DNA from: Congeria kusceri | Lineage: Eukaryota; Mollusca; Bivalvia; Myida; Dreissenidae | Direction of reading: 5' to 3' | NCBI GenBank assembly: GCA_027627225.1 | Contig: CM051034.1 | Span: forward strand, 10,046,761 to 10,110,760 | Length of the DNA: 64,000 nt | Shown: piece after piece, positions 10,401 to 60,777 of the stretch | Layout of the letters: each line of letters starts with the position of its first letter | How positions within the stretch are numbered: position 1 is the first letter of the stretch | Translations under genes and position numbers: made by a program | Notes under the pieces: generated by a model | The model's input: only the letters and a program-made list of their open reading frames with translations | Told to the model about the DNA's origin: nothing | Databases searched by the model: none

Positions 10401-13400
10401 AATGACATCTCAAATACTCTTGGACAAGAACATAGTTGTTAGAATGACATCTCAAATACCCTTGGAATAGAAGCTACTTGTTAGAATGACATCTCAAATA
10501 CTCTTGGACAAGAAGATAGTTGTTAGAATGACATCTCAAATACTCTTGGACAAGAAGATAGTTGTTAGAATGACATCTCAAATACTCTTGGACAAGAGGA
10601 TAGTTGTTAGAATGACATCTCAAATACTCTTGGACAAGAAGATAGTTGTTAGAATGACATCTCAAATACTCTTGGACAAGAAGATAGTTGTTAGAATGAC
10701 ATCTCAAATACTCTTGGACAAGAAGATAGTTGTTAGAATGACATCTCAAATACTCTTGGACAAGAAGATAGTTGTTAGAATGACATCTCAAATACTCTTG
10801 GACAAGAAGATAGTTGTTAGAATGACATCTCAAATACTCTTGGACAAGAAGATAGTTGTTAGAATGACATCTCAAATACTCTTGGACAAGAAGATAGTTA
10901 TTAGAATGACATCTCATATACTCTTGGACAAGAAGATAGTTGTTAGAATGACATCTCAAATACTCTTGGACAAGAAGATAGTTGTTAGAATGACATCTCA
11001 AATACTCTTGGACAAGAAGATAGTTGTTAGAATGACATCTCAAATACCCTTGGACAAGAAGATAGTTGTTAGAATGACATCTCAAATACTCTTGGACAAG
11101 AAGATAGTTGTTAGAATGACATCTCAAATACTCTTGGACAAGAAGATAGTTGTTAGAATGACATCTCAAATACTCTTGGACAAGAAGATAGTTGTTAGAA
11201 TGACATCTCAAATACTCTTGGACAAGAAGATAGTTGTTAGAATGACATCTCATATACTCTTGGACAAGAAGATAGTTGTTAGAATGACATCTCAAATACT
11301 CTTGGACAAGAAGATAGTTGTTAGAATGACATCTCAAATACTCTTGGACAAGAAGATAGTTGTTAGAATGACATCTCAAATACTCTTGGACAAGAAGATA
11401 GTTGTTAGAATGACATCTCAAATACTCTTGGACAAGAAGATAGTTGTTAGAATGACATCTCAAATACTCTTGGACAAGAAGATAGTTGTTAGAATGACAT
11501 CTCAAATACTCTTGGACAAGAAGATAGTTGTTAGAATGACATCTCAAATACCCTTGGACAAGAAGATAGTTGTTAGAATGACATCTCAAATACTCTTGGA
11601 CAAGAAGATAGTTGTTAGAATGACATCTCAAATACTCTTGGACAAGAAGATAGTTGTTAGAATGACATCTCAAATACTCTTGGACAAGAAGATAGTTGTT
11701 AGAATGACATCTCAAATACTCTTGGACAAGAAGATAGTTGTTAGAATGACATCTCATATACTCTTGGACAAGAAGATAGTTGTTAGAATGACATCTCAAA
11801 TACTCTTGGACAAGAAGATAGTTGTTAGAATGACATCTCAAATACTCTTGGACAAGAAGATAGTTGTTAGAATGACATCTCAAATACCCTTGGACTAGAA
11901 GATAGTTGTTAGATGACATCTCATATACTCTTGGACAAGAAGATAGTTGTTAGAATGACATCTCAAATACTCTTGGACAAGAGGATAGTTGTTAGAATGA
12001 CATCTCAAACACTTTTGGACAAGAAGATAGTTGTTAGAATGACATCTCATATACTCTTGGACAAGAAGATAGTTGTTAGAATGACATCTCAAATACCCTT
12101 GGACAAGAAGATAGTTGTTAGAATGACATCTCAAATACTCTTGGACAAGAAGATAGTTGTTAGAATGACATCTCATATACTCTTGGACAAGAAGATAGTT
12201 GTTAGAATGACATCTCAAATACTCTTGGACAAGAAGATAGTTGTTAGAATGACATCTCATATACTCTTGGACAAGAAGATAGTTGTTAGAATGACATCTC
12301 AAATACTCTTGGACAAGAAGATAGTTGTTAGAATGACATCTCAAATACTCTTGGACAAGAAGATAGTTGTTAGAATGACATCTCAAATACCCTTGGACAA
12401 GAAGATAGTTGTTAGAATGACATCTCAAATACTCTTGGACAAGAAGATAGTTGTTAGAATGACATCTCATATACTCTTGGACAAGAAGATAGTTGTTAGA
12501 ATGACATCTCAAATACTCTTGGACAAGAAGATAGTTGTTAGAATGACATCTCAAATACCCTTGGACAAGAAGATAGTTGTTAGATGACATCTCATATACT
12601 CTTGGACAAGAAGATAGTTGTTAGAATGACATCTCAAATACCCTTGGACAAGAAGATAGTTGTTAGAATGACATCTCAAATACTCTTGGACAAGAAGATA
12701 GTTGTTAGAATGACATCTCATATACTCTTGGACAAGAAGATAGTTGTTAGAATGACATCTCAAATACTCTTGGACAAGAAGATAGTTGTTAGAATGACAT
12801 CTCATATACTCTTGGACAAGAAGATAGTTGTTAGAATGACATCTCAAATACTCTTGGACAAGAAGATAGTTGTTAGAATGACATCTCAAATACTCTTGGA
12901 CAAGAAGATAGTTGTTAGAATGACATCTCAAATACTCTTGGACAAGAAGATAGTTGTTAGAATGACATCTCAAATACCCTTGGACAAGAAGATAGTTGTT
13001 AGAATGACATCTCAAATACCCTTGGACAAGAAGATAGTTGTTAGAATGACATCTCAAATACCCTTGGACTAGAAGATAGTTGTTAGATGACATCTCAAAT
13101 ACCCTTGGACAAGAAGATAGTTGTTAGAATGACATCTCAAATACCCTTGGACAAGAAGATAGTTGTTAGAATGACATCTCAAATACCCTTGGACAAGAAG
13201 ATAGTTGTTAGAATGACATCTCAAATACCCTTGGACAAGAAGATACTTGTTAGAATGACCATCAGTTCTTAAGGTATATTAAAAACAAACAATTATAGGT
13301 TAATGCTAATTGATGAAAACTTATAAGTTTACACATATCCATCTATGTTTTGTTACCGCTGGTAGCTGATATAATATATTCAATCCTATTTCCTTGTGAT

Positions 13401-16400
13401 TTCACAAAGAGAGACTATTTATGTTGCAATCACCATATAATTATTCAGTATAAATACTTTGTGTCAAGATCTATACATTCTAATCGCTATTTCTATTGCA
13501 GCCAGGACACACTACATGTGGCTAAAGAAAATTATGTTTGACTACAACTTTTTTTCACAAAACCCTATAAAGCACCAAAAATAAATAGGAGTTTAACACA
13601 GTAAGCTAAATTTGACTAAAACATAGCCAGGGGAACCTTGTTTCAAAACATACCTAACTGATTCTTCATATTCATAGATATAGAGTTCAGATGTGCCTTA
13701 GAAGCATAAAGTCTGTTCACTGCCTTTCGAGATCGTACGATTTCCTTCGCCAGAATACTGCATGCCGCTTTCTCCCCTTTCTTTGCAGAGTCTTTTAACT
13801 GTCTTTTTGTCTTTTCTTCCTCTCTCTGAATGGCTTGTATAACAAAAATTTGGCATTATTTAAATTATTAACTGGCCTCTCCCAATGAATGTTAAACTAT
13901 TTACTAGCGTTAAGATATTAATTGTAATGAATCAATGAAGTTGTCATGTCTTCTATGTTGATATGTGCTAAATAAAATAAATAACCAGAGATGATATTCA
14001 ATATGGTTTTAAAATTTCAATACAACATTGAATCCTAGAATATATTAATACAAAAATATAATATACTGGTATGTAACAAAAACTAACAAGACATTGTTTT
14101 ACCTGAGTAAACTGTCATGCTCCTTATGATTTATGAATGACAACATAAATGCAGTTTGCAATGCTATCTTTTAAAAATAACATACCATACCTTTTATTTG
14201 CCGCTCAAGAACATAACCTTCTTTTCTGATCTTATGTGTCCAATCATTCACCTAAAATAATGACAAAATATGTGTTTTTCTTTGTTTAATTATTGACACA
14301 AGTGGTGGTTCTGTATAAGGGCAGTTTACAATACACAGCCACCATTTGCAGGAGAAAGTGCATTTTGTTCACTGGTGTTTAAAGAAAGTTTACATTTAAT
14401 AGGAGCAAAAAAAAAGAGATGGTGTAATTATAAATTAAAATCTATCACTCATAACAAATCAATATATTTTTCATTCGTGTAGCAGATTATCGTTAAAATT
14501 GAACATACTGGGTGGCAGACAAGGTTATTTATTTATATATATATATATTTTTTTAAATTTTTTTTTTTTTTTTTTTTTTTAAATATTTATTCACAAATAT
14601 GCATGATACATTTCATTACAAGCATCACAGGAATAAGCATATATCTATATATACAGTACAAGCATATAATGTGAAAAAAGAGCATGCCAAACTATAATAT
14701 ATATGATTATGCAAAAGATGTAATTAAGAACTAAAACATTATAACAAAAAGACTCTACCAGTTCCCACGAACTTTTATATTTATCAGGTAAATGTGTTTT
14801 TTGCATAACTGCAAAGGCTAGTTTGCAGCTACTTCTAAGGCCATGAACTGTTGGAGTTACCAATTTACGTTTACAGAGGTAAATAAAGCGTTTTATTTCG
14901 AGACAAAATATATTATACTTTCCAGACAATTTACAACTTGATCCCAATAAAAAGGTTTTACAATCAAAACTAAAGTTATTATCGATGTTTTTGACATAAG
15001 ATGTGATGTCATGTAATAGCGTTTGTATTACATTACAACTCCAAAATAAGTGAACAAGCGTCTCTGTTTCTGTCTTACAGAAAGTACATTTGTCTGAATC
15101 ACGGATCTTCATTTTATTTAGCAAGTTATTTGTGGCTAGAATATTATGCGTTAGTCTTACTTGGAACCACTGATTATATGAATCTCTTGTCGTTGTAAAG
15201 ATCCATGAATGCAAAATTTCCCACTCCGACTTATCAATATTAAAGAAGCTATTCCACTTTGATTGGCCTGTAGGTATTTCATTATTTTGTATTAATATTT
15301 TATATATACTGGGTTTATTTTTATTGCAACACAATATTGGCTTAATGTAACATGGAATAATAGGAAAACAACAGTCATTAGTAAGTGATGTGATATCCGT
15401 GAGCCTTAGAGAACATAGGTATTTTTTTATTGATTGTATCATTCCTTCGAATTGCAGGAAGTTTACGCTGATACCAAGTTTTTGTTCAAATTCTATTCTA
15501 TTTATAAATGTTCCGTTATAATTCATAATGTCTTTTACATACCTAATTCCTCTGTTATACCATGTTGGAACAAAAAAAGGTCTCTGCCCAATTAAAAACT
15601 TATGGTTAAAGAAGAGAGGAAGCTCTTGAAATTTTGTGATATTATCTACTGGGAAAAGATCAATAAAATCTGCAAAGGATTTTAAAACATCTTTCCAAAA
15701 AGGATTGAACAACTTTGCTGTGGCAAATTCAATATAGTACTTTCCAAAGTTTAATATTTTTTCTAATTCAAGTACATTGTTCAGCACAAATCTGTAGCAT
15801 TTACTATTATATCCTGTAGATAGTCTATCTAACCAGAGTATTTTCAACTTTTTAACATAAGAAAAAACGTCAACCATTTTCAAACCTCCAAATTCATAAA
15901 ACATGTCATTAATTGTATTTAATATTTGTGTATTTGGGGTTGGTAATGTGGAAAATAGGTTTGTTAAAAGAGGTAATAAAAGTGATTTGACAACTGCTAT
16001 TCTGCCAATTGGCGTTAGTACTCTTCTATTCCATAACCTTATACAGTGTTCAATACTTTTCATTTTATCATTAAAATTTATATGCACAATGTTTTCCAGG
16101 TCTATGTGAAACTGTATGCCAAGTAATTTAAAACTAGTGTTCCCCCAATCCAACTTCCATTTCGTTTTTATAGAGCGAGTGCTATATTTTAAGGTACCAA
16201 TCCAAATAACATGGGTTTTGTCAAAGTTAACTTTTAAACCTGAGTATTGGGAAAATTGATGTAAAATATCTAGAGCGTTATTAACTGAGTTTTCACTTCC
16301 ATCTAACAACAATGTTGTGTCATCTGCAAATTGTGTTATTTTGTATTCTGTGCCATTGATAAAAATACCTTTAATGATTTTGGTGTTTCTGATTTTTATG

Positions 16401-19400
16401 GATAAAATTTCAGCACATAAAATAAACAAATACGGACTTATTGGATCCCCCTGTCTACAGCCACGGCCTATGTTAAAGAATTCGGAAAGGAAGCCGTTCA
16501 ATTGCACAGCAGTGGAAGTATTATGATAAAAAAGTGATATCCATTTAGTAAAACTTGGACCAAAATTGAAAAAGGAAAGTGTTTGGAATATAAAATCAAA
16601 AGATAGAGTATCGAATGCTTTTTCACAGTCAATCATCATCAGCAATCCAGGTATATTTTGTTTTTCAGTATAGTTCATTATATCATATACTAAACGAATG
16701 TTTTCCCCAATAAATCTTCCTTTGATAAACCCTGTTTGATCTTTATTTATCAAAAGATCTAAAACAGACTTCAGTCTTGCAGCTATAGTTCCGGAGGCTA
16801 ATTTGTATACAATATTTAATAGAGTTATAGGTCTCCAATTTTTTAAAAACTGCTTTGGTTTATTTTCTTTAGGAATACATGTGATATATCCTTGTTTCTG
16901 AGTTATAGATAGTTCTCCTTTTATAAAAGCAAAGTTAAGTGCTCTTACAACAAAATGACCAATTTTTCCCCAAAAGACTTTTAAAAAATTAGATGTAAAT
17001 CCATCAGAACCAGGACTTTTGTCATTTTTCATATTTTTTAAGGTATTCGAAACTTCGGAGAATCATAAAACCCCTTCCAATGATGAAGACTGTTCTGGAC
17101 TTAATTTGTTAGTATTTGCATTTTCTAAATAGCTATCAATATCAAGATTATTTTTTTCTTTGGACGTCATATATAAATTTTTATAAAATAAATCTGTTTC
17201 TTTCAGAATTTCTGATTGATTATAAATAATATTCCCATCACCGGTTTATAAAAAAGGTATAACTTTGTTGGTGTAGTTATATTTTTCTAAATTACAAAAG
17301 AAATTTGTTGGTTTTTCACCATTTTCTATCCATTCAGCTCTGGATCTGATTATATTTCCTTTAATTTTTTCTTCTCTTATAAACTGTAGTTCATTGTGTA
17401 GAGTGATTAACAACGCATTATTATCCTGATTCAAATTATTCTCAATCGTTTCAATTTCCATAATTAACCCCTGTTCTTTATTAATTTGACACTTCTTTTT
17501 ATGTGATGAATAAGAAATTGTTGAGCCTCTGATTTCCATCAATAATGTTTCCAGAAAAAGTTGGTCGTCAATTTGAAACTGTATATCTGCATTACAGACT
17601 GAGGAGATATTTTCTAATTATATACTGGCAATGCATATTGTATTTTTATTTGTTCGATTTTATCATTAATGTAAGCAAGATAATCTTTATCTAGAAGAAG
17701 GGAGTTGTTGAATTTCCAAAGTCCTTTTCCATGTGGAATATTTTCAAAATCCAAAATTAAAGTAATGACTGAGTGATCAGAACGATAACTAATTCCTATA
17801 TTACAATCTCTGATATGAGGTATGAAATCACTAGTAACCAAGAAAAAATCTAGCCTTGCCTGTTGTAAGGGGTTTGTCCTTCGCCATGAGAACTTTTTTA
17901 AATCTCCGTGTATTTCTCTGAATGGGTCGTGTAAATTTTGTTCTCCAATAAAATTTGTTAAAATGTTTCTTGCTTTTATGTTATTATTGTTGTATTTGTA
18001 ATTACTGTAATCAAGATTTGTATTTAACACCAAGTTAAAATCACCACACCATATAAAAGATTCATTCCCTATATTTTCAATTATAGTAAAAATATGCTGA
18101 TAGAAAGTAGGGTTATCATTATTTGGGCCATAAACGTTAATAAGTGTTAACTGTTTACCTTGTATAGTAAGATTTAAAATTATATAGTTGCCTTTATCAT
18201 CTGTAAAAACTTGGTTAACCATGACATCTAATCCTTTGGTAAACAAAATCCCCACCCCTCGGGCATTTGATTTTGCAAAACTATAAAAGGCCTCTGCATT
18301 CCACAGTGAATATAATTGTTTTTCCATGTCCGATGTAAAATGTAAATCTTGCAAACAAAATATATGTGAATTTGTTTCTTTAAAAAAATGAAAAACATCT
18401 GATCTGTTTTTTGGATCAGTTAAGCCTCCGCAATTATATGAGATAATCTTTAATTTATTCATCTATGAATATATTTGAAAAAAGACGTTATTAGGAAAAT
18501 ACTGGCATCAGCAAAGATGCAGCTATTCAACAATGTCAAAGTTCGCAGAACATTCCTGATTTTTATATACAGCATGGCAAGCATAGAAGAAAAACAACTT
18601 CAAACTGAGAAAGAAATCGTGAAAATTTACACAAAATACAAAGTGTACAGTACAAATAAATTGCCCTAAATATAAGACTAAGACATAGTTGCTAGTTGGA
18701 GATATGATTTTTTTTATTCATAATACAAAATGATACTGTAATATGCCTATTGTGGATATATTTGAATTAAATTAAGTAATGATAGGGCAAAACAAAAACT
18801 AAGGCTATATATCAATCAAAAATATATACAAGATGAATACATTTACTGCCATTAAAAGTAATAATACAGACAAGGTTATTGAGATTATTTTTAAAATGCC
18901 TATGTGTGTTGGTTTAAATTGCTCTGGCAAGCAAAATGGAAGTGTTTTCATACAAATACTTATGGAACATTAATAAGGAATAGTTTTTCTGTCCAGGTAT
19001 GTAAGTTGTATTGTGATCCGTACACAATGACTATGTCATTTCTGGACATGAAATTTGCTATCAAAATCCTGTTGGAACAATATACACAAAGAAGGAAAAC
19101 TTTCCACCATAGAATTGATCCTGCCCCAGCATCACACAAACATTGTCCATATAAAAAGTATCTCAATGTTGGTCCAGAGCATGTTGGTCAGTCATTCCAG
19201 CTCCCTTAATGCATAAATTGATTTATGCATGGTTTAAACATTGTAAAATGCATATGTATGGGCAGTTTGTTCCATTTGTAACATTTCACATAAAAACAAA
19301 AAGCAGTTTGAAAATCGCGAATATTTTGCCAAAGTACAACCTAGATTTAGCTCTTTCTGATGACCTTTTTCACATGCAGTGTGACCCATTGGTCCAGCCC

Positions 19401-45417: not shown

Positions 45418-45895
45418 AAAAGTGCGTGGTCTGTGATTTATGCGATGTTTCATTCAGTAGTGCGAGGTCTGTAGTTTATGCATGACACGCGATGTTTCAT
45501 TCAGAAGTGCGTGGTATGTGGTTTATGCGATGTTTCATTCAATAGAGCGTGGTCTGTGGTTTATGCATGAGACGCGATGTTTCGTTCAGAAGTGCGTCTC
45601 TGTGGTTTATGCAGGAGACGCGATATTTCGTTCAGAAGTGTGTGGTCTGCAGTTTATGCAGGAGACGCGATATTTCGTTCAGAAGTGTGTGGTCTGTAGT
45701 TTATGCAAGAGACGTGATATTTCGTTCAGAAGTGCGTGGTCTGGGGTTTATGCAGGAGACGCGATATTTCGTTCAGCTGTGCGTGGTCCGTAGTTTATGC
45801 AGGAGACGCGATATTTTGTTCAGAAGTGTGTGGTCTGTGGTTTATGCAGGTGACGCAATGTTTTGTTCAGAAATGCGTGGTCTGTGGTTTATGCA
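45418..45895. repeat. 47-bp minisatellite, about 10 copies, at the 3' end of the PDZ gene
   Basis: The unit contains TTTATGCAGGAGACGCGATA and TTTCGTTCAGAAGTGCGTGG and is spaced 47 bp (for example 45634, 45681, 45728, 45775). The last copy on the right overlaps the final codons and stop of the predicted PDZ-gene exon, so the array probably arose from coding/3'-UTR sequence. Plus-strand frames here are shadows of the repeat. Confidence 0.9.
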
Positions 45896-46016
45896 GCAGC
45901 AATTTCATGCTGACACGATGTTTCTCTGCGTATACTTTGTCCACGACGGCCATCACCTCGTCCCTGGTGAACCCCTCCACCCTGTGGCGGTCCACGCCTA
46001 GTATCACCATGCCAAC
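45867..46016 (-). CDS. PDZ gene, terminal exon F
   Basis: Acceptor TTTATTGCAG, 49 codons from VGMVILGVDRHRVEGFTRDE to HKPQTTHF, then TGA. The last eight residues and stop fall in the end copy of the 47-bp minisatellite. The true end could differ if a splice donor (AAA|GTATAC at the VDKVY codons) is used. Confidence 0.72.
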   Translation of the reverse strand, partial: VGMVILGVDRHRVEGFTRDEVMAVVDKVYAEKHRVSMKLLLHKPQTTHF

Positions 46017-49000: not shown

Positions 49001-52000
49001 TTAAATGCCTTAAATTGTTAGATTTAAACATCGGAACTCTAGAGCTCCATTATAATAACAAGAATAGAATTAAAAAGAGAAATTAAAAGAAAAAAGTTTG
49101 TCCCTATCGGGGTTCGAACCAGTGCCCTTTGGATTAAAAGGTTATCGCCGTAACCACTCGGCCATCCGGACTGTTATAAGAAGCCTGCGTTTAATACTTG
49201 ATATAAGTGATCCACGTGTTGTTACAAAATTTAACGGAAACGACAGAAACATTCCAAATTATTCAATCGTATCGCGTTTGTAACGCTTTATAATTTTATC
49301 AATTTCAAATGATCACTATTCATAAACGAAACTGTATTTTCATAATGAGTCTACGCCATTAGTGTCATTTCGCTCCCTGGTGTACAGTGTTCTTTTATTT
49401 TTGGAATCTGTGACAAAAAGTTGGGAAAATGTCATTTTGACAATCTGTGAACAAGTCCCTTTAACATGTCAAATCATGTTAGAAACGAAAACAAAATCGC
49501 ATTATTGTTATCTATCGGCCAATAAACAACTCTTTGTCGTTCTGATGCGTGGCTATTAAACCACTCGTGCTAACGTCCTCGTAGTTTAATTCCTACACAT
49601 CAGAACTCCAATTCGTTGTTTATTGGCCGATAAACAACGATAAATCGAAACTTATTTCTTAATCAAAAACGGTTTCTAATCGAGTCAATACTCAAACCCC
49701 ATAACTCTCCACTCCACAATACCTCTATAGTACTGTCGTCGTGCGCCGCCCCGTGTTTGTCTATCCTCGCTATCTTAACCTCTCGTTCACCGTTATTCAC
49801 CTCCTCTGCAAACTCGATACCTGAAAACATAAAGGGAGCATTGGCGGATTCTAAGTACTTCTGATTTAATAGTTCATATATAACAACGAAATTAAGTTAT
49901 ATGTAAGTTCATGACAATATAGGAATAATACAAAGTTTAACAACAACACCTACAACAGCGAGAGCTGTCAGAGAACAGCGCGCTCAACTATTCGAAGTAT
50001 TTCAGTTCGTACATATTCTGGAAATTGGACGGGACATAAATTGGTTGAAACACAAAGCTGAGGTATAGCAATTTTTTACCAATGTATTCGAAGTTTCAAG
50101 CGAATACCTTATGTAGTTTAGAAATAATACTTTGGTACATAAACTTTAATCCCAAATATATGTGAAAAGTGGGCATACCTCTGTCAAAATACAACATAGA
50201 GTTATGGGGATTATTGCACTTGCATGATGCTGGAGTTGATTACAAATATGTATTCCAAGTTTCAAGTGAATACCTTATGAAGTTTAAAAATTATAAGACT
50301 GAATAAACACTTCACTGAAAATCAATATGAAAAGGAGGAATAACACAAAACAGAGTAATGGGGAATGTTGCACTTGGTGTTGGAGTTGACGACAAAGGTA
50401 TAGTCTAAGTTTCAAGTGAATAACTGATGTAGTTTTGAAGTTACTTTAACCAGAAAAGTATGTGAAAAATTGGCATAACTCTGTCAAAATACAAAACAAA
50501 GTTATGGGGAATGCTGCACTTGGTGTTGAAGTTGATGCCAAAGGTATATTCAAAGCTTCAAGTGAATAACTTATGTAGTTTTCAAGTTACAAGACTGTTG
50601 AATATAAACTTTAACCAGAAAAATATATGTTATATAGACAACCGTAGGACACGGATGCCCCCACATTCCGTTTGTTGTTACAAAACTTTAATGATGTCGG
50701 AAAAAATGCACCGAAATCCCCAGGTGCACAAGTTGACATGCTGATTAATATTTTTATAAAGTTTAATCACTCTAGCAATAATACTTTTTGAGTTACACGT
50801 GACACAAGTCCAAAAATGTCATGTTTTGATAACAAATGGGCTATAACTCCGCTGATGTATAAAAAAACACACACAGGCGCACAAGTTCATCTGCTGATTA
50901 ATATGTTTATAAAGTTACATCACTCTAGCAGCAATACTTTTTGAGTTATGCGCGACACAAGTCCAACAATGTCAGTTTTTGCTAAAAAATGGCCATAACT
51001 CCGCTGATGTCGGAAAAAAATGCACCAAAATACCCAGGTGCACAAGCCCCGATGCCGATAAATATGCTTATAAAGTTTCATTACTCTAGCAGTTATACTT
51101 TTTGAGTTATGCGCGACACAAATATCCGACGGACGGACGGACAGACGGACGGACGGACAGACGGACGGACAAGGGCAAATCTATATGCCCCACCCCCATC
51201 TAAAGTGGGGGCATAAAAAGAGGCATACATTTATCAAAATACAAAACTGAGTTATGGGGAATGTTGCTCCTGATGCTGGAGTTGATGACAGAGGTATATT
51301 CCAAGTTTCAAGTGAATAACTTATGTAGTTTTGAAGTTACAGGACTTTTGAATGTAAACTTTAACCAAGATCAGACGCGGACGCCGACGCCGGCACGAGT
51401 TGGAAAGTTCACCTATTCTTCGAATGGTCGAGCTAAAACAAGGGCAAATCTATATGCCGCCCCCCCCCCCCCCTCTAAAGTGGGGGCATAAGAATGGTCG
51501 AGCTAAAACAACAAAAACAAATTCTTGGGACACAGATATACTACCTATTGAAGGTTTTGTTTTTGACAGGTGCACCACGACACTGCCCGGGATTTTTTCG
51601 ATTTGTCCTGAATCGTGGGAGCTGAAGTCACTGCAACGAAACGTGTTTATTGTATACTACATATACATTCATTATGGTCAGTCTGTTAGTGTCATAAGTC
51701 GATGCAGCCATCGTAATAAAACACTAACACCCGTAGTGTCCGTAAGATCTTTCTTAGCCACCAAAATACCCAAAATTCTCTAATACCAAATTGCTTGGAA
51801 TACTCTGACACCAAAATACCCAGAATTTTTAAACACCAAAATTCCCAAAATTCTCTAATACCAAATTGCCTGGAATACTCTGACACCAAAATACCAAGAA
51901 TTCTCAGACACCGAAATACACAAAATGCTCTAATACCAAATTATGTTGAATGCTCAGACACCAAAATACACAAAATGATCTAATACCAAATTATGCGCAA

Positions 52001-55000
52001 TGCTCTGACACCAAAACACACATAAAGCTCAAATACCAAATTATGTGTAATGCTCAGACACCAAAAGACACAAAATACTCTAATACCAAATTATGTGAAA
52101 TGCTCCGACACCGAAGTACCCAGAATTCTTTAACAACGAAGCACGCGGAATTCTCGGACACTTGAATACTTACGGAAATCTCAGAAACAAACTGAAACAT
52201 ACACAGATTTTTTCTAATAATTTGTTGCACACAGACTTGTCAGACAAGAGAAATACCCAGAACAAAAGAGCTAAACCGACGAAACTGAGTCCGCAGTAAA
52301 AAGGTAAAGGTAAAGGATAGGTTTATAGTCTGATATTGATATACATCTTCAGCCGACTTTCACATTTACCCCCCGATCACTGGGTCATAAGTAATCCGTT
52401 AACACTAGTCTAACAGAACACGTACTTTCAAACACATAGCCAAAATTAAATAACTTCGCTTAAATATATTGAACAGTCCGATGGACTAACAGCCAAAAAT
52501 AGCAATAAGTTTCCATATTAAGAACCAGTTTATTAATCGTAATAATTTTAATAACGCGTAACTGCAATCTGATTAAAATCAAGTCCTAAAATACGCTTCG
52601 CATTAGGATCTGAGGACGACCAGTAGAAGGTCATCTTTTGACAACTTTTCAGTCAGCCAATCAGAGCCTTGCTTTCATGGTTTTGAAAAGTGAAAGTGAA
52701 ATTAGCTGGGATACGTTTAGTTATTTAACATTCATATTTGTACCATGTAAACACAATTAAGAATCAAGTTGTGGGATATACCGGTACGCCAAATAAGAAC
52801 AACTTGTGGCAGAAATATATATTTATATGCGATGCAACATTCCGTGGAAAATAATAAATCTAATAGTACATTACAACAAAAACAAACAAGGTAATGCTTC
52901 TCGAAAGGATCAATTCTATTGGTTGAGATATAAATAGCTTTTTGAAACTTCTAGGTTTGCGAGAAAAAGTAATTCAACAGGCCGTCATCAGATCTTCCTG
53001 CAGAAAGATCGTTAACTTTAGTCAGATTGGCGTAATTGATACCTGAATGTGGCAATGCTGGAACCTTCCTCGGAATGCTCCATGTCCAGGTACTCAAAGT
53101 GGTCAAGCGCGGACTTCACTTCCGTTTGACCGCTGTTGACACTCCGGACGGGCGACTTCAGACGACCGCCTTTGTCGCCGTCATGCGACGCTTTCATAAT
53201 GTCCACGATTTCGGCCTCTTTGCGGCTTTGGTTCATGGACTTGATGTGAAAATGACCACCGTCGGCTGAAAATGTGTAGCAAGGATCTGTAATTGAACTG
53301 TTTCTGTTAATATTTTGATGAATGAGGCTATTTGCTAAACATGTTTGTCTAACACAAAGTATATAAATACAAAGCATTTACTGTAGACAAGTTGAAGAAG
53401 TATAATATATAACCGGGTACTAAAGAAGTATGATGGATTTACAATTTTAAAATGTGTATGTTAATGTTAATTAAATTAATTGTGAATAATCACAAAACGG
53501 TTTTGCCTGTACAGCCGAAAACTCCGATATACCGGTACATTGACTCGGCGTGGTTTAGATTACACAACATAAATAAACAGTGCAAGGTCGACACTCGTGT
53601 TTATTGATTGCTTTGCGTTTCCTTCGAGATTTTTATGTTGTTTTTTTTCCTATCTGATTTTAAGTTATTTTGTCACTTTCATCTGCTTATTTTGAAAAAC
53701 AGCAACAACAACATGTATATGAAAGATCGTGCATGCACACAGTTTTAAAGATAAAAAATACGTTGTTATATATATGAAAGCAATCCACACTTCATAAGTA
53801 TATAGCTTGCTATTATAATATTGAAAAATCAAAGATATTTACAGACAAAAGGCGTAAAAAAGTTGTTCTCTTCCGCTTAACCCAACCACCCCACCGCTTT
53901 TTTCCGCCGACCACGGAAGTTTGTTATTGCCTATCGATCATTAACTTCTTCTGACTTTCGGTAAAAAGAGCAGTTTTCACTAATATGCGGCTTTTTAAGG
54001 CAAATTTTTTCTTATTGTATACCCCCCCCCCCCCCTCTAGATGTTTTGGAGACGTAAGCGGAAACCAACGGTTATATGTTTGACCTAATTATTATAACAG
54101 TGCAATGGCCGATGGAATATTTATAACAAACTTTATTTCGATAACATGACACATGTGAAAACAATATAAAAGAAGAAGACGAAGAAAAAAGAAGGACAAA
54201 AGCAACAACACATCATGTTTATTGAAGTGTTTTGTTTCGCCCATGTGCTTGTTACATGAATACCATAATTATGGTAATGTCAGAACATATGGCGCGTTAA
54301 TAAAAAAAACCCCGCATATTCTGCAAAAATAAAATTATATTAATTAATCCAGTGTCTGTTCACGTGAACGGCGTTGGAGTAACCTCCGTTACATAACAAA
54401 TATTTTCTAAAAAATGTACTCCACAGAACAAAAATGTATTTGATAACATACTATGCACCTATCAATATTTTCCCCAGGTGAGCGGCGATACTTAAGACTG
54501 AACGTGATACACGACACGCCGAATGATTGCGGGTCCCGGCAATTCGACTTTGGTTTTTAGATCCCGGCAATATTGGCACCTGGGGCGGTATTCACAAAAC
54601 ATCTTAAGTTACATTTTATCCTTATCCTTGAATTTGAAAAGTTTCTCAACTGTATATTTCCATAAAGAAACAACTAAGCACTAAGTAACACTTTAAATAA
54701 CATCATTATGAAAGTGTTATTTGAGGAATATCAACAACATATGCATATGTTTATTAAGTAAAGAATTTTAATACATTCAAATTGTGCACTTAAGTGAAAA
54801 TATTTCAGAAATTACTTAAGATGTTTTGTGAATACCAGCAATTTGACACACCAATTAAGCATCTCCCACTGAGGGGATTTATACAGAAATGCTTGGCTGT
54901 ATGGTGGGGAAATTGACACCAAAAAAATAATTTCCTTGCGTCAGCGTCCCCCCCCCCCCCCCCCACACACACACACCCGCATTCCCTGCGGAAAAATATT

Positions 55001-58000
55001 GATAGGTGCACTACGGAATGACATGACTTTGTGCAAAATGGCCAAAACAAACTGGGCACCGCATGCAGGGAAAGCGAACACAGTAAATGAACAACATGTA
55101 TCAAGTACCTTCACCATAATCAATTTTTTCCTCAATCGATTTTGATGTGTCATTATTCTCTGCAACAATAATAAATATCAAACATCTCAGCAAATAACAT
55201 AATGACAAGTTTAGTATTTTTCTGCCAGATTATATTAAAAAAAGGTTCTGGACACGTCACTTTAACTGAGTAAAGAACCTAACCTTGTACAACGTATTCA
55301 TAATGCTTCTAATATACGTATACATTTATAATTATATCAACATATTACAATTAATACGACTACTATAATTATTTGCTGTTAGTTAACAATTAAACACTCG
55401 ATTATATCTGAGATAGAAAGTTTTGCGAAGACTGATCCTGATGCTTAGGTTAGACTTTTATTTAAACGCAGCCTGAGCTAAAAGTGTCTCTGTTTCCAAT
55501 AACACAATTCCGTGGTTATTACATCTTCCTCACCAATTTCTTGGTCACCCAAAGCTGCAATGTTTATATGTTCATTCTTTCATATTTTCGTGATTAACTG
55601 CAGTGATCATAGTTCTATGTTTCCACTTAACAATTGCACTGGCTACTAGTATTTTCCATGACCATGTTTCCACTTACCCATTTCCGTGGGTACTTTCCAT
55701 GACCATGTTTCTTCTTACAGATTTCATGATTATTATCAACGACCATATTTCCACTCACCCATTTCCCTGGTTGTTACAATGATCATATTTCCACTCATCC
55801 TTTTTTCCTGGTTATTTTAACGGCCATATATTCACTCACCTATTTCCGTAGTTACTTTCAACGACCATATTTCCCCTTACCATTTCTGTAGTTACTTTTA
55901 ACGACCATATTTCCCCTTACCATTCCCCTGGTTATTTTAACGACAATATTTCCCCTTATTATTTCACTGGTTATTTTCAACGACAATGTTTCCCCTTTCC
56001 ATTTCCCTGGTTATTTTAACGGCCATATTTCCCCTTACCATTTCCCTGGTTATTTCAACGACCATATTTCCACTTGCCCATTTCCCTAGTTATCTCAACG
56101 ACCATATTTCCACTTACCCTATTTTCCTGACTAACAAAGTTGGTTATCAACAGTAATCATGACTCCACGTCTCCACTCACCCATCTCCCTGACTAACAAC
56201 AGTGGTCATAACTCCACATTTCCACTTACCCATCTCCCTGACTAACAACAGTGATTATGACTCCCTCATTTCCACTCACCTACCACCCTGACTAACAACA
56301 GAGATCATGACTATACGTCTCCACTCACCCATTTCCCTGACTAACAACAGTGATCATGACTCCCTCATTTCCACTCACCCATCTCCCTGGTTATCAACAG
56401 TAATCATGACTCCACATTTCCACTCACCCATCTCCCTGACTAACAACAGTGATCATGACTCCACTTCTCTACTAAACCATTTCCCCGGTGATCAACAGTA
56501 ATCATGACTCCACATTTCCACTCACCTATCACCCTGACTAACAACAGAGATCATGACTCCACGTCTCCACTCACCCATTTCCTTGACTAACAACAGTGAT
56601 CATGACTCCCTCATCTCCACGCACCCATCTCCCTGGTTATCAACAGTAATCATGACTCCACATTTTACTCACCCATCACCCTGGTTATCAACGGTGATCA
56701 TGACTCCACATTTCCACTCACCCATCTCCCTGACTAACAACAGTGATCACGACTCCACATTTTCACTCACCCATCCCCCCGACTAACAACAGTGATCACG
56801 ACTCCACATTTCACTCACCCATTTCCCTGATTAACAACAGTGATCATGACTCCACATTTCCACTCACCCATCTTTCTGACTAACAACAGAGATCATGACT
56901 CCACGTCTCCACTCACCCATTTCCCTGACTAACAACAGTGATCATGACTCCCTCATTTCCACTCACCCATCTCCCTGGTTATCAACAGTAATCATGACTC
57001 CACATTTTCACTCACCCATCTCCCTGACTAACAACAGTGATAATGACTCCACATTTCACTCACCTATCACCCTGACTAACAACAGTGATCATGACTCCAC
57101 ATTTCACTCACCCATCTCCCTGACTAAGAACAGAGATCATAACTCCACATTTCCACTCACCCATCTCCCTGGTTATCAACAGTAATCATGACTCCACATT
57201 TCCACTCACCCATCTCCCTGACTAACAACAATGATCATGACTCCACATTTCACTCACCCATCTCCCTGACCAACAACAGTGATCATGACTCCACATTTCC
57301 ACTCACCCATCTCCCTGGTTATCAACAGTAATCATGACTCCACGTCTCCACTCACCCATCTCCCTGAATAACAACAGAGATCATGACTCTATGTTGCCAC
57401 TCACCCATGCCCCTGGTTATCAACAGTTATCATGACTCCAAATTTCCACTCACCCATCTCCCTGACTAACAACAGTGATCATGACTCCACGTCTCCACTC
57501 ACCCATCTCCCTGGTTATCAACAGTAATCATGACTCCACGTCTCTACTCACCTATCACCCTGACTAAATAAAGTGATCAGGACTCCACATTTTCACTCAC
57601 CTATCTGCCTGGTTATCAACAGTAATCATGACTCCACATTTCACTCACCCATCTCCCTGACTAACAACATAAATAATGACTCCACGTCTCCACTCACCCA
57701 TCTCCCTGGTTATCAACAGTAATCATGACTCCACATTTTCACTCACCCATCTCCCTGGTTATCAACAGTGATCATGACTCCACATTTTCACTCACCCATC
57801 CCCCTGACTAACAACAGAGATCATGACTCCACGTCTCCACTCACCCATCTCCCTGGTTATCAACAGTAATCATGACTCCACATTTTCACTCACCCATCTC
57901 CCTGACTAACAACAGTAATCATGACTCAACATTTCCACTCACCCATCTCCCTGGTTATCAACAGTAATCATGACTCCACATTTTCACTCACCCATCTCCC

Positions 58001-60777
58001 TGACTAACAACAGTAATCATGACTCAACATTTCCACTCACCCATCTCCCTGGTTATCAACAGTAGTCATGACTCCACAACTCCACTCACTCATCTCCCGG
58101 ACTAACAACAGTGATAATGACTCCACATTTCCACTCACCCATCTCCCTGGTTATCAACAGAGATCATGACTCCACATTTCCACTCACCCATCTCTCTGAC
58201 TAACAACAGTGATCATGACTCCAAATTTCCACTCACCCATCTCCCTGGTTATCAACAGTGATCATGACTCCACATTTCACTCATCCATCTCCCTGACTAA
58301 CAACAGTGATTATGACTCCACATTTTCACTCACCCACCTCCCTGGTTATCAACAGTAATCACGACTTCACGTCTCCACTCACCTATCACCCAGACTAACA
58401 ACAGTGAGCATGACTCCACATTTTCATTCACCCACCTCCCTGGTTATCAACAGTAATCACGACTTCACGTCTCCACTCACCTATCACCCTGACTAACAAC
58501 AGTGATCATGACTCCACATTTATTTTCACTCACCCATCTCCCTCGTTATCAACAGAAATCATGACTCCACATTTCACACACCCATCTACCTGACTAACAA
58601 CAGAGATCATGACTCCACATTTCCACTCACCCATCTCCCTGACTAACAACAGAGATAATGACTCCACATTTCCACTCACCCATCTCACTGGTTATCAACA
58701 GTAATCATGACTCCACGTCTCCACTCACCCATCTCCATGACTAACAACAGAGATCATGACTCCACATTTCCACTCACCCATCTCCCTGGTTATCAACAGT
58801 AATCATGAATCCACGTCTCCACTCACCCATCTCCCTCACTAACAACAGAGATCATGACTCCACGTCTCCACTCACCCATATCCCTGGTTATCAACAGTAA
58901 TCATGACTCCACGTCTCCACTCACCCATCTCCCTGGTTATCAACAGTGATCATGACTCCATGTCTCCACTCACCTATCTCGCTCACTAACAACAGAGATC
59001 ATGACTCCACGTCCCCACTCGCCCATCTCCCTGGTTATCAACAGTAATCATGACTCCACATTCGACTCACTCATCTCCCTGAATAACAACAGAGATCATG
59101 ACTCCACATTTCACTCACCCATCTCCCTGACTAACAGAGATCATGACTCCACGTCTGCACTCACATATCTCCCTGGATATCAACAGTAATCATGACTCTT
59201 CCACTCACCCATCTCCCTGACTAACAACAGAGATCATGACTCCACATTTCCACTTACCCATCTCCCTGACTAACAACAGTGATCATGACTCCACGTCTCC
59301 ACTCACCCATCTCCCTGAATAACAACAGAGAACATGACTCCACATTTCCACTCACCCATCTCCCTGACTAACAACAGTGATTATGACTCCACGTCTCCAC
59401 TCACCCATCTCCCTGGTTATCAACAGTAATCATGACTCCACGTCTCCACTCACCTATCACCCAGACTAACAACAGTGAGCATGACTCCACATTTTCACTC
59501 ACCCACCTCCCTGGTTATCAACAGTAATCACGACTTCACGTCTCCACTCACCTATCACCCAGACTAACAACAGTGAGCATGACTCCACATTTTCATTCAC
59601 CCACCTCCCTGGTTATCAACAGTAGTCACGACTTCACGTCTCCACTCACCTATCACCCTGACTAACAACAGTGATCATGACTCCACATTTTTTTTCACTC
59701 ACCCATCTCCCTCGTTATCAACAGAAATCATGACTCCACATTTCACACACCCATCTACCTGACTAACAACAGAGATCATGACTCCACATTTCCACTCACC
59801 CATCTCCCTGACTAACAACAGAGATAATGACTCCACATTTCCACTCACCCATCTCACTGGTTATCAACAGTAATCATGACTCCACGTCTCCACTCACCCA
59901 TCTCCATGACTAACAACAGAGATCATGACTCCACATTTCCACTCACCCATCTCCCTGGTTATCAACAGTAATCATGAATCCACGTCTCCACTCACCCATC
60001 TCCCTCACTAACAACAGAGATCATGACTCCACGTCTCCACTCACCCATATCCCTGGTTATCAACAGTAATCATGACTCCACGTCTCCACTCACCCATCTC
60101 CCTGGTTATCAACAGTGATCATGACTCCATGTCTCCACTCACCTATCTCGCTCACTAACAACAGAGATCATGACTCCACGTCCTCACTCGCCCATCTCCC
60201 TGGTTATCAACAGTAATCATGACTCCACATTCGACTCACTCATCTCCCTGAATAACAACAGAGATCATGACTCCACATTTCACTCACCCATCTCCCTGAC
60301 TAACAGAGATCATGACTCCACGTCTCCACTCACATATCTCCCTGGTTATCAACAGTAATCATGACTCTTCCACTCACCCATCTCCCTGACTAACAACAGA
60401 GATCATGACTCCACATTTCCACTTACCCATCTCCCTGACTAACAACAGTGATCATGACTCCACGTCTCCACTCACCCATCTCCCTGAAAAACAACAGAGA
60501 ACATGACTCCACATTTCCACTCACCCATCTCCCTGACTAACAAAAGTGATCATGACTCCACGTCTCCACTCACTCATTTCCCTGACTAACAACGGAGAAC
60601 ATGACCCCACGTCTCCACTCACCCATTTCCGTGGTGATGAGGGTCCTCTTGGGTTTCTGCTTGAGCCTGTGGTTGAGCGGCAGGTGCAGCTTCATTGACA
60701 ACGTTTGGTAGGCCTCGATCTCGTACCGGTTCACCAGGTTGTCGTACTGCACCACGTCGTGTGCGTAGATCACACCC
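45867..60777 (-). CDS. PDZ-domain protein gene, 5'-partial, six exons
   Basis: Exons in transcript order are 60623-60777, 55109-55159, 53043-53286, 51545-51630, 49723-49820 and 45867-46016. All junctions are GT-AG with matching phases (784 nt, 260 residues plus split first codon). The first exon (GVIYAHDVVQYDNLVNRYEI...) matches no family I know. A charged, Ser-rich linker follows. Residues about 165-245 form a PDZ domain: beta-1 SVVVHLSKTK, a carboxylate-binding loop SIGIEF in place of GLGF, IARIDKHGAAHDDSTIEVGM, ILGVDRHRVEG and helix FTRDEVMAVVDKV. The first helix position is R rather than the H of class I PDZ domains. A short tail ends LHKPQTTHF. It presumably acts as a scaffold binding C-terminal peptides (family knowledge). 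AATAAA lies at 45186-45191. Upstream exons were not found in the window. Confidence 0.78.
46500..48825. mobile_element. inverted-pair element, copy A (with nested insertion)
   Basis: Reverse-complement match to 61270-62635. One end holds GACAATCGGCGTTGACATCA, the other AAATCTAGGTCAAAAGTGAT and GACAGCTACGCCG. Without the nested insertion it would be about 1.3 kb, like copy B. There is no coding frame. Both ends carry CGGCGT pointing inward, a hint of very short terminal inverted repeats. Confidence 0.75.
47368..48450. repeat. dispersed repeat nested in copy A
   Basis: Copy B lacks this stretch: its match passes from ...CAATTTCAA directly to ATTAACATGCAC. It contains duplicated phrases (GTAACGGTGACCTTGAC; CAAAGGGCAATAACTCCAGAA), then GGACGGACGGACGGACAGAC and GTGATTACTATCGGGC, with GGGCCC at both ends. 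Confidence 0.75.
48955..49464. mobile_element. TTAA-bounded MITE carrying a tRNA-like sequence
   Basis: The ends are inverted repeats of about 23 nt: TTAAAGGGACTTGTTCACAG at left and its complement at right (CTGTGAACAAGTCCCTTTAA). The 510-bp element has no coding frame. TTAA at both ends may be the target site, as in piggyBac-type elements. The interior holds a tRNA-like segment. Confidence 0.8.
49100..49171 (-). tRNA. tRNA-like sequence (probably pseudo, element-borne)
   Basis: A 72-nt stretch beginning GTCCGGATGGCCGAGTGGTT (A box, good D arm GCC...GGC) with B box GGTTCGAACC and ends GTCC/GGAC that pair. The anticodon loop reads CTTTTAA (TTT, Lys-like), but the anticodon and T stems pair badly. 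It lies inside a MITE, so a tRNA-derived pseudogene is likelier than a working tRNA. Confidence 0.4.
49723..49820 (-). CDS. PDZ gene, exon E (PDZ core)
   Basis: Acceptor GTTTTCAG, 32 codons IEFAEEVNNGEREVKIARID... to DSTIE, donor GTATTG. It contains the GLGF-like loop end and the G-A-A-H-D-D turn typical of the PDZ middle. Confidence 0.8.
49960..51500. repeat. dispersed repeat cluster in the PDZ-gene intron
   Basis: The phrase TTTCAAGTGAATAACTTATG and variants recur at about 50.10, 50.27, 50.41, 50.56 and 51.31 kb, with ACAAAACAGAGTTATGGGGA between. A second family (GGCCATAACTCCGCTGATGT) occupies 50.65-51.2 kb. (ACGG)n lies at 51127-51172, and a run of 14 C at 51460-51473. The cluster ends with CTTCGAATGGTCGAGCTAAAA. 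Confidence 0.75.
51545..51630 (-). CDS. PDZ gene, exon D (start of PDZ domain)
   Basis: Acceptor TTCGTTGCAG, then SDFSSHDSGQIEKIPG and SVVVHLSKTKPSI, donor GTAGTA. It supplies PDZ strand beta-1 and half of the ligand-binding loop. It is found only by phase: exon C cannot join exon E without it. Confidence 0.75.
51765..52170. repeat. about 24/49-bp tandem repeat
   Basis: Alternating phrases ACACCAAAATAC(A/C)CA(A/G)AAT and CTCTAATACCAAATTATG give a dimer of about 49 bp, degenerate on the right. It lies in the intron between PDZ-gene exons C and D. Confidence 0.8.
52171..53042. other. intron sequence, nothing recognised
   Basis: AT-rich. GTAAAGGTAAAGG near 52305 and short decayed repeats only. 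Confidence 0.4.
53043..53286 (-). CDS. PDZ gene, exon C
   Basis: Eighty whole codons from PCYTFSADGGHFHIKSMNQS to EEGSSIATF between an ATTACAG acceptor and a GTATCA donor. The linker is rich in S, K, D and E. GC-rich codons contrast with the AT-rich introns, which supports coding. Confidence 0.75.
53287..54586. other. intron sequence with a C tract
   Basis: A run of 14 C at 54022-54035. No exon was needed or found between exons B and C here. Confidence 0.4.
54587..54836. mobile_element. 250-bp MITE with perfect 23-nt inverted ends
   Basis: GGTATTCACAAAACATCTTA at left is matched by its exact complement at right (TAAGATGTTTTGTGAATACC). The interior is AT-rich and non-coding. It lies in the intron between exons B and C. 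Confidence 0.85.
54948..54976. repeat. C17 followed by (AC)n
   Basis: Seventeen C at 54948-54964, then alternating AC. Minus-strand glycine-rich frames over it are artefacts. Confidence 0.9.
55109..55159 (-). CDS. PDZ gene, exon B (51 nt)
   Basis: A small exon (NNDTSKSIEEKIDYGE with split codons at both ends) between TTGCAG and GTACTT. It is accepted because it joins exons A and C in frame (G|AG and G|AT). It is acidic and polar. Confidence 0.65.
55500..60622. repeat. 49-bp minisatellite, about 100 copies, starting at the PDZ-gene exon A donor
   Basis: The unit reads CCACTCACCCATCTCCCTGA, then CTAACAACAGTGATCATGACTCCA plus a variable tail. A second main type has GGTTATCAACAGTAATCATG. In gene sense the unit boundary is GGGAGATGG|GTGAGTGG, a copy of the exon A/intron junction GAAATGG|GTGAGTGG. 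The left part (55.5-56.1 kb) is strongly diverged (TTTCCCTGGTTATTTTAACG units). The right part near the exon is much more uniform. Confidence 0.97.
58312..60581. repeat. 1,169-bp higher-order duplication in the 49-bp array
   Basis: 58312-59412 and 59481-60581 match almost base for base at an offset of 1,169 bp, including private variants such as CCTCGTTATCAACAGAAATC (58541 and 59710) and CATTCGACTCACTCATC. Confidence 0.88.
60623..60777 (-). CDS. PDZ gene, exon A (most 5' seen)
   Basis: Acceptor TTCCCTCCAG, 51 whole codons ending KRTLITTEM plus G, donor GTGAGT. The last exon bases GAAATGG and the donor are the seed of the adjoining 49-bp array. ORF continuity and phase support coding; the product segment is unrecognised. 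Confidence 0.75.

Follow-up and report, generated by a model that had tools for sequence, protein, structure and literature searches.

About one hundred tandem copies of an exon's 5′ splice site in an intron of a PDZD7-like gene of Congeria kusceri: a probable exon-boundary minisatellite

How does an exon come to be followed by about one hundred look-alikes of its own 5′ splice site, and which of these does it use? This question is raised by a stretch of 64,000 nucleotides from the bivalve Congeria kusceri (GCA_027627225.1, contig CM051034.1, positions 10,046,761 to 10,110,760), hereafter the window, to which all coordinates refer unless another locus is named. On its minus strand an exon, here called exon A, ends with the boundary ACGGAAATGG|GTGAGTGG, and 103 further copies follow, down to about 55.5 kb. 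The locus represents a natural experiment in splice-site choice, in which one exon faces about 100 similar donors, set mostly in 49-nt steps, and in which wrong choices are predicted to destroy the product. The reading favoured here, to which we assign a probability of roughly 0.75, is that the host gene, which is PDZD7-like, holds in one intron an exon-boundary minisatellite, or 'mirage', which would have been seeded by the end of exon A and would be tolerated through use of the exon-proximal donor. The seed, the direction of copying, the confinement of the unit core to this one place, the quality of the donors, their effects on the reading frame and the presence of sister arrays can all be read from the DNA itself.

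An anchor scan of the gene strand yielded 104 in-phase copies, namely the real boundary, 91 copies with the 49-bp period and 12 in a distal part. A 13th distal anchor at 55401, encountered when the scan was extended by 50 nt, lay at the limit of the scan and was left out as probably due to chance. According to Tandem Repeats Finder (TRF), the 49-bp array covers 56148-60630 with 91.8 copies, and a 40/79-bp stretch of greater divergence covers 55653-56129. The corresponding features are:

56148..60630, minus strand: main array with a 49-bp unit, from TRF and anchor scan; 91 copies besides the real boundary, the units carrying an exon-end-like stretch and a donor
55503..56129, minus strand: distal part of the array, of greater divergence, with 12 anchors spaced near 40 bp in the better stretches
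60615..60638, minus strand: boundary seed, i.e. the last 16 nt of exon A (ATCACCACGGAAATGG) plus the real donor GTGAGTGG, from anchor scan and unit comparison

Measured from one GT to the next, 68 of the 91 main-part units are exactly 49 nt long, and the array makes up 70% of its host intron, which spans 7,357 nt from exon A to exon C. Two unit types occur in the main array, one carrying ATAAC (34/91) and a commoner one (57/91). The motif GTRAGT is intact in 87 of the 104 copies and lost in 17, several of them distal, and the 9-mer TGGGTGAGT is present in 63/104; in 78 of 103 copies a CAG precedes the GT by exactly 8 nt, and in 82 there is one near that spot. A preliminary description had reported an intron with some 100 tandem donor-like sites after the real one, many of them with a CAG shortly before the GT, and both observations are borne out by these counts. 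It had also let the array begin precisely at the splice site, which needs correction: the edge of the array lies 7 nt inside exon A, and the repeat unit takes in about the last 16 nt of the exon.

The host gene, judged by its predicted domains, is PDZD7-like, i.e. related to the gene of a hearing protein. The domain order of PDZD7, namely PDZ1, PDZ2, harmonin-homology domain (HHD) and PDZ3, is the order found on the minus strand, where two PDZ exons and two HHD exons were located in 60 kb taken upstream of the window. Within the window the gene comprises:

60623..60777, minus strand: exon A, 155 nt, the last part found of the HHD-like domain, ending in LITTEM plus one nucleotide; from open reading frame and phase, seven relatives and the PDZD7 HHD match
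53043..53265, minus strand: exon C, the next exon found, in phase with exon A; from open reading frame and phase
49723..49820, minus strand: first part of the PDZ3 exon; Pfam PDZ on the joined exons, PDB match to PDZD7 with E 0.0037
45867..46016, minus strand: second part of the PDZ3 exon, holding the stop codon and probably the last coding exon; Pfam PDZ and PDB on the joined exons

When the HHD exons are joined with exon A, the best PDB match is PDZD7 (7de7, E 9.8e-16), followed by whirlin (1.2e-4), and in Pfam the domain reaches 26.5 bits for USH1C_N, just below the cut-off of 27. Both PDZ1 and PDZ3 have PDZD7 as their best PDB match, and PDZ2 matches DLG4 and then KIAA1526. The HHD is single in the genome, with three matches, one for each exon. 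Taken alone, exon A is without a match in Pfam or PDB, 26 residues of HHD1 are without a PDB match, and exon C has two chance-level PDB matches (E 0.75 and 0.8); Pfam searches of the three minus frames gave no result in 45.0-54.9 kb or in locus L010, and a CKS match in 60.6-64.0 kb was dropped as far below cut-off. The exons considered are those found, and others may lie upstream of PDZ1 or between them; the end of the PDZ1 exon was placed by eye.

Whether the copies are good donors was assessed with a simple score matrix, in which the real donor of exon A reaches 8.58. At least this score is attained by 87 GT sites of the array (17.0 per kb), elsewhere on the strand (58.5 kb) by 21 sites (0.36 per kb) and on the opposite strand of the array by none. 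The preliminary description had suggested comparing the unit donors with shuffled sequence, and the outcome is clear, 200 dinucleotide shuffles of the array giving 14 such sites on average and never more than 25, against the 87 observed. Likewise, the duplex energy to the U1 5′ end is as good as that of the real donor at 75 array sites and at none elsewhere on the strand. This abundance of strong donors is what would be expected if the array recruited U1, guarding the intron from early polyadenylation or regulating the splicing of exon A. Poly(A) signals are also few in the array, with one AATAAA and no ATTAAA in 5,119 nt. The 2,238 nt that make up the rest of the intron contain five and one, and the 56,643 nt of the strand outside the intron contain 115 and 80; however, the scarcity in the array may simply reflect base composition. 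Within the unit the donor hexamer ranks fourth of 49 windows, with a mean majority frequency of 0.969, behind windows that include AGTCAT (0.978) and CTGTTG (0.973), so that special selection on the hexamer was rejected and a function resting on it is argued against. GTRAGT has moreover been lost from 17 copies, and a U1 platform or decoy is regarded as an unlikely explanation of the array.

The effect of each donor on the reading frame points to the copy that is probably used. When the extra donors of exon A are joined to exon C, all 103 lead to a stop before the end of exon C, so that splicing at them would do harm or, in the best case, serve to reduce output, and the exon-proximal copy, as the sole one of the 104 that joins the next exon found without a stop, is taken to be the working donor. 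The other copies would most likely be passive, lying too far from the acceptor and enhancers of the exon for exon definition, and transcripts that did use inner copies would be expected to go to nonsense-mediated decay. The array of exon A is accompanied by two comparable ones further upstream in the same gene, both on the minus strand (G000:C11). The first, at the PDZ2 exon (L011, 3015-5858), has a 48-bp unit in about 61 copies, 60 of them extra; its real donor lies at L011 5832, and the unit consists of some 26-30 nt of exon end, the rest being intron. In the extra copies the exonic part is on average 90% identical, the GT is intact in 52/60, 41 score at least 6 and four are as good as the real donor. 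The second, at the HHD1 exon (L010, 869-2502), has a 36-bp unit in 42 copies, 41 of them extra, with the real donor at L010 2478 and 23-24 nt of exon end in the unit; the extra copies are 81% identical in their exonic part, 36/41 keep the GT and 29/41 equal or exceed the real donor. At both exons the edge of the array lies 23-25 nt inside the exon. That the first HHD1 copy is the true donor follows from the joined HHD1-HHD2 protein, which aligns with PDZD7 without insertion.

The HHD1 array is also the place where some copies could act as productive alternative donors and add peptides, in the manner reported for human IFI6 (6-16). Its unit of 36 bp corresponds to 12 codons, three of the 41 extra donors keep the frame open (adding 12, 24 and 36 residues), and the 29 that match or outscore the real donor would not lack strength. 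On the other hand, a stop arises in the other 38 cases at HHD1 and in every case at exon A, and an insertion would sit inside a domain that aligns gap-free with PDZD7 at that point. Productive use of the copies therefore seems quite improbable as a general account of these arrays, and passive tolerance, with splicing at the exon-proximal donor, is preferred.

With regard to the origin of the repeat, the consensus of the ATAAC units, ATAACCAGGGAGATGG, is identical to the end of exon A (ATCACCACGGAAATGG) at 13 of 16 positions, a likeness attained by none of 117,450 other 16-mers taken from both strands of the whole window with the array left out. Without the last three nucleotides, which are common to donors anyway, 10 of 13 positions agree, and eight of the 117,450 background sequences do as well. 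The commoner unit type matches the exon end at 10/16, which 226 background 16-mers equal, and among the 12 distal units four (at 56077, 55758, 55677 and 55503) match at 13/16 and the other eight at 5-12 of 16. The CAG of the units itself would correspond to the CAC of the exon's CCACGG after a single C-to-G change. The direction of copying is indicated by seven relatives of exon A from a protein collection, six of which were taken into the alignment: in all seven the end of the exon reads L-I/V-TTE-M/I/L-G, and the likeness is lost beyond it. Three relatives have a readable continuation (65, 119 and 66 residues) without self-repeat, the top self-identity at lags 8-24 being 0.16; the other four continue for 1-10 residues, which are too few to rule out an array, and one of these, P0004, continues with EW as at the exon A locus. 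The conservation of the exon end in 7/7 relatives, together with three readable intron stretches without a repeat, indicates that the exon end is old and that the array is derived from it. In a search of 1.55 Gb in 1,071 contigs with a 31-nt unit core and up to two mismatches, all 39 matches, a count that can be a lower bound, fell inside this array, and the reversed control gave none, so that a dispersed satellite was rejected on counts that can themselves be lower bounds. A 34-nt exact unit core was absent from viral contigs and no phage records were found; a scan of viral and prokaryote contigs with exon A returned a single Streptomyces match (18 residues, 61%), dismissed as chance.

These observations also bear on the idea that an unrelated repeat inserted next to the exon or replaced its end, the likeness between the two being a matter of chance. 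Large minisatellites are indeed common in this genome (57 arrays in the 324 kb scanned), but the unit core is restricted to this array, the protein sequence of the exon end is conserved among relatives, the ATAAC units resemble the exon more closely than any of the background 16-mers, and two sister arrays hold exon ends at 81-90% identity, all of which leaves an unrelated repeat very improbable. The proposal of the preliminary description that the array grew from the exon-intron boundary is, by contrast, well supported by the exon bases in the unit, the conserved exon end, the private core and the two sister cases.

Growth from this boundary would have begun with a tandem duplication that captured about 16 nt of the end of exon A and about 30 nt of the start of the intron, and unequal exchange together with block duplication would then have raised the number to about 104 copies, as suggested by the order of the units, the diverged distal edge and a repeat of 24-unit blocks. 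The identity between units is 0.82 at lag 1 and 0.865 at lag 2, with a peak of 0.899 at lag 24, which is explained by a block of about 24 units that is repeated 1,169 bp further on:

58333..60622 (edges approximate), minus strand: higher-order duplication within the array, with two blocks, each of about 24 units, at an offset of 1,169 bp; from the lag-24 identity peak and matching spacing irregularities

Corresponding donors in the two blocks are, for example, 60377 and 59208, and the same odd spacings of 44 and 46 nt recur at 60377-60287 and 59208-59118. Divergence is greatest at the distal edge.

Other repeats and elements are found nearby. A self-comparison of the window disclosed a 20-kb tandem array at 20312-40501, with a unit of about 990 bp and copies 92-95% alike, and a 42-bp minisatellite occupies 9526-13259 (89 copies, 97% matches), whose period is a multiple of three and in which long frames are open on both strands. 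Two long minus-strand frames at 14645-18462 resemble, as judged by eye from their motifs, a LINE-type reverse transcriptase and endonuclease. In another sample, L021 (1085-10000, G000:C11), a 55-bp array of about 162 copies nearly fills the sampled 10 kb.

The presence of the CAG in so many units had led the preliminary description to regard each unit as a potential 8-nt micro-exon, here read as CAG|GGAGATGG|GTGAGT, and to consider nested or recursive splicing. The CAGs at exactly 8 nt before the GT fit this idea, and it is further favoured by the density of AGs that reach the weakest real acceptor of the gene, which at 3.91 per kb in the array is about twice that in the rest of the window (1.91). 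One unit provides a conspicuous candidate:

60475..60500, minus strand: best acceptor with an 8-nt micro-exon (60483-60476) and a donor (60475); acceptor score 9.2, compared with 2.26-8.19 at the four real acceptors

This candidate, which reads TTCTCTGTTGTTTTTCAG|GGAGATGG|GTGAGTGG, scores higher as an acceptor than any other site compared, the four real ones of the gene included, and the unit at 59314 scores 7.26. The unit CAGs, considered as acceptors, are rejected only in part, with a mean pyrimidine fraction of 0.58 and a maximum of 0.82, compared with 0.59-0.82 at the real ones. Nevertheless, 20 of the 480 AGs of the array reach the weakest of the four real acceptors and seven reach their median. 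The introns between adjacent micro-exons would measure some 41 nt, which is probably not enough, an insert of 8 nt breaks the frame, the twelve best acceptors listed include no ATAAC unit, and the CAG may be no more than an altered copy of the exon's CCACGG. Most of the micro-exon proposal is left without support, although single micro-exons keep some probability in view of the acceptor at 60483 and the doubled AG density. As to recursive splicing, 13 units on the gene strand between 55839 and 60142 read YAG|GTRAGT and have the shape of a recursive splice point, which is recognised by a pyrimidine-tract acceptor abutting a donor; however, the 17 nt upstream of these 13 sites contain 24-47% pyrimidines, against 59-82% at the four real acceptors, and the suggestion finds no support. 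Nested or recursive splicing by way of such micro-exons accordingly deserves hardly any credence.

The recurrence of such arrays within one gene raises the matter of how unusual they are. Among the seven internal exon ends found in the gene, three carry donor arrays (104, 61 and 42 copies). The terminal exon is associated with a further repeat, which was left out of both exon-end counts:

45442..45896, minus strand: 47-bp array of 11 copies (TRF), the first of which includes the final nine codons of the PDZ3 exon with the stop; not a donor array

Among other PDZ exon ends of the same genome, a boundary array was found at 1/20, these controls being 20 of 88 listed matches, some of them in the same gene clusters, with donors guessed from their score. 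The positive case, in an unrelated PDZ gene (L044, 1-694, G000:C12), consists of four tandem copies of a 60-nt boundary piece (40 nt of exon and 20 of intron) that are identical at 54-60 of 60 positions; in L049, a 28-bp repeat about 110 nt beyond the likely donor was kept out of the count. The comparison of 3/7 with 1/20 gives a Fisher p of 0.042, and three of seven random exon ends falling within 75 nt of one of 29 arrays in 123.9 kb has a P of 0.0014, both values being post hoc, calculated after the pattern had been seen. Of the 57 minisatellite arrays mentioned above, four have a consensus-unit donor of at least 8.5, two of them being this array and its distal part; the consensus donors of the PDZ2 and HHD1 units lie under that line, at 8.17 and 6.92. 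It is possible, and is put forward tentatively, that 5′ splice sites are the preferred target of a process that amplifies them in place, for example one acting on transcribed DNA at exon ends. It would have struck a minimum of three of the seven internal exon ends here and one or more exons of an unrelated PDZ gene, in which case this genome would contain many boundary arrays that the spliceosome must ignore. In any event, the three arrays suggest that the ends of exons can give rise to minisatellites more than once within a gene, a point of relevance to the growth of introns and to the possible rise of new ones.

Minisatellites at exon boundaries are a known kind, as exemplified by the mirages of amphioxus, human IFI6 and human boundary minisatellites. 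The closest relatives are the amphioxus mirages, minisatellite-like tandem repeats over exon-intron boundaries in, for example, Adh3, the globins BflGb6 and BflGb9, troponin C and PGBD5, which are said not to seem to disturb regular splicing.(PMC3087553, PMC3902484) As in these, tandem copies in the intron of exon A span the exon-intron boundary and many copies keep splice signals.(PMC3087553, PMC3902484) The unit here holds exon and intron sequence across the splice site (13/16 in 34 units and 10/16 in 57, more clearly so in the sister arrays), the first copy is the authentic boundary and is contiguous with the array, and GTRAGT is kept in 87/104. The edges of amphioxus mirages are described as escaping homogenisation,(PMC3087553) and the distal edge is likewise the most diverged part here. 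More than one mirage per gene is already known, since in PGBD5 of amphioxus repeats occur at a 5′ as well as at a 3′ splice site.(PMC3902484) The scale differs, as far as the amphioxus cases are described: BflGb6 has six and three copies of 150-160 bp in two haplotypes and Adh3 has units of 10-72 bp, whereas about 104 copies occur at one boundary here and 61 and 42 at two others.

In human IFI6 (6-16), a minisatellite contains several donors, two downstream units of which are said to be used (PMC4526556, citing Turri 1995; the title appears also in PMC2572611). Common to IFI6 and exon A is a minisatellite at the donor of an exon with a donor in the repeat,(PMC4526556) but unlike the two used units of IFI6, use of the copies at exon A would truncate the protein. 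Human segmental duplications carry internal tandem repeats at exon-intron boundaries, on average four units of 30 bp, which alter gene structure; these too are boundary minisatellites, although much smaller.(PMC2812944) It has also been described that introns can be gained by tandem duplication of splice-site segments.(PMC4974935) The present case resembles this model in that duplication across the boundary brings ready-made splice signals, and differs from it in that the copies remain in the old intron and a new intron is not inferred. An intronic minisatellite of C. elegans is enriched near multiple alternative splicing decisions and shares with this array its association with splicing; it is, however, a 24-base repeat present in many genes and is not described, in the part of the report that deals with it, as an exon-end copy, whereas the unit here is private to one boundary.(PMC4039745) The donor units of IFI6, the C. 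elegans minisatellite and the twofold density of acceptor-like AGs count against passivity of the array. A report on an earthworm was considered and set aside,(PMC12783039) the literature search yielded neither a boundary array with as many copies nor a gene with three donor arrays, and a search for oyster, mollusc or PDZD7 cases found nothing relevant. In conclusion, what is unusual here is the degree and the recurrence of a known kind of boundary minisatellite, and this array, as an extreme case of a known oddity, offers a good test case for the correct picking of splice sites.
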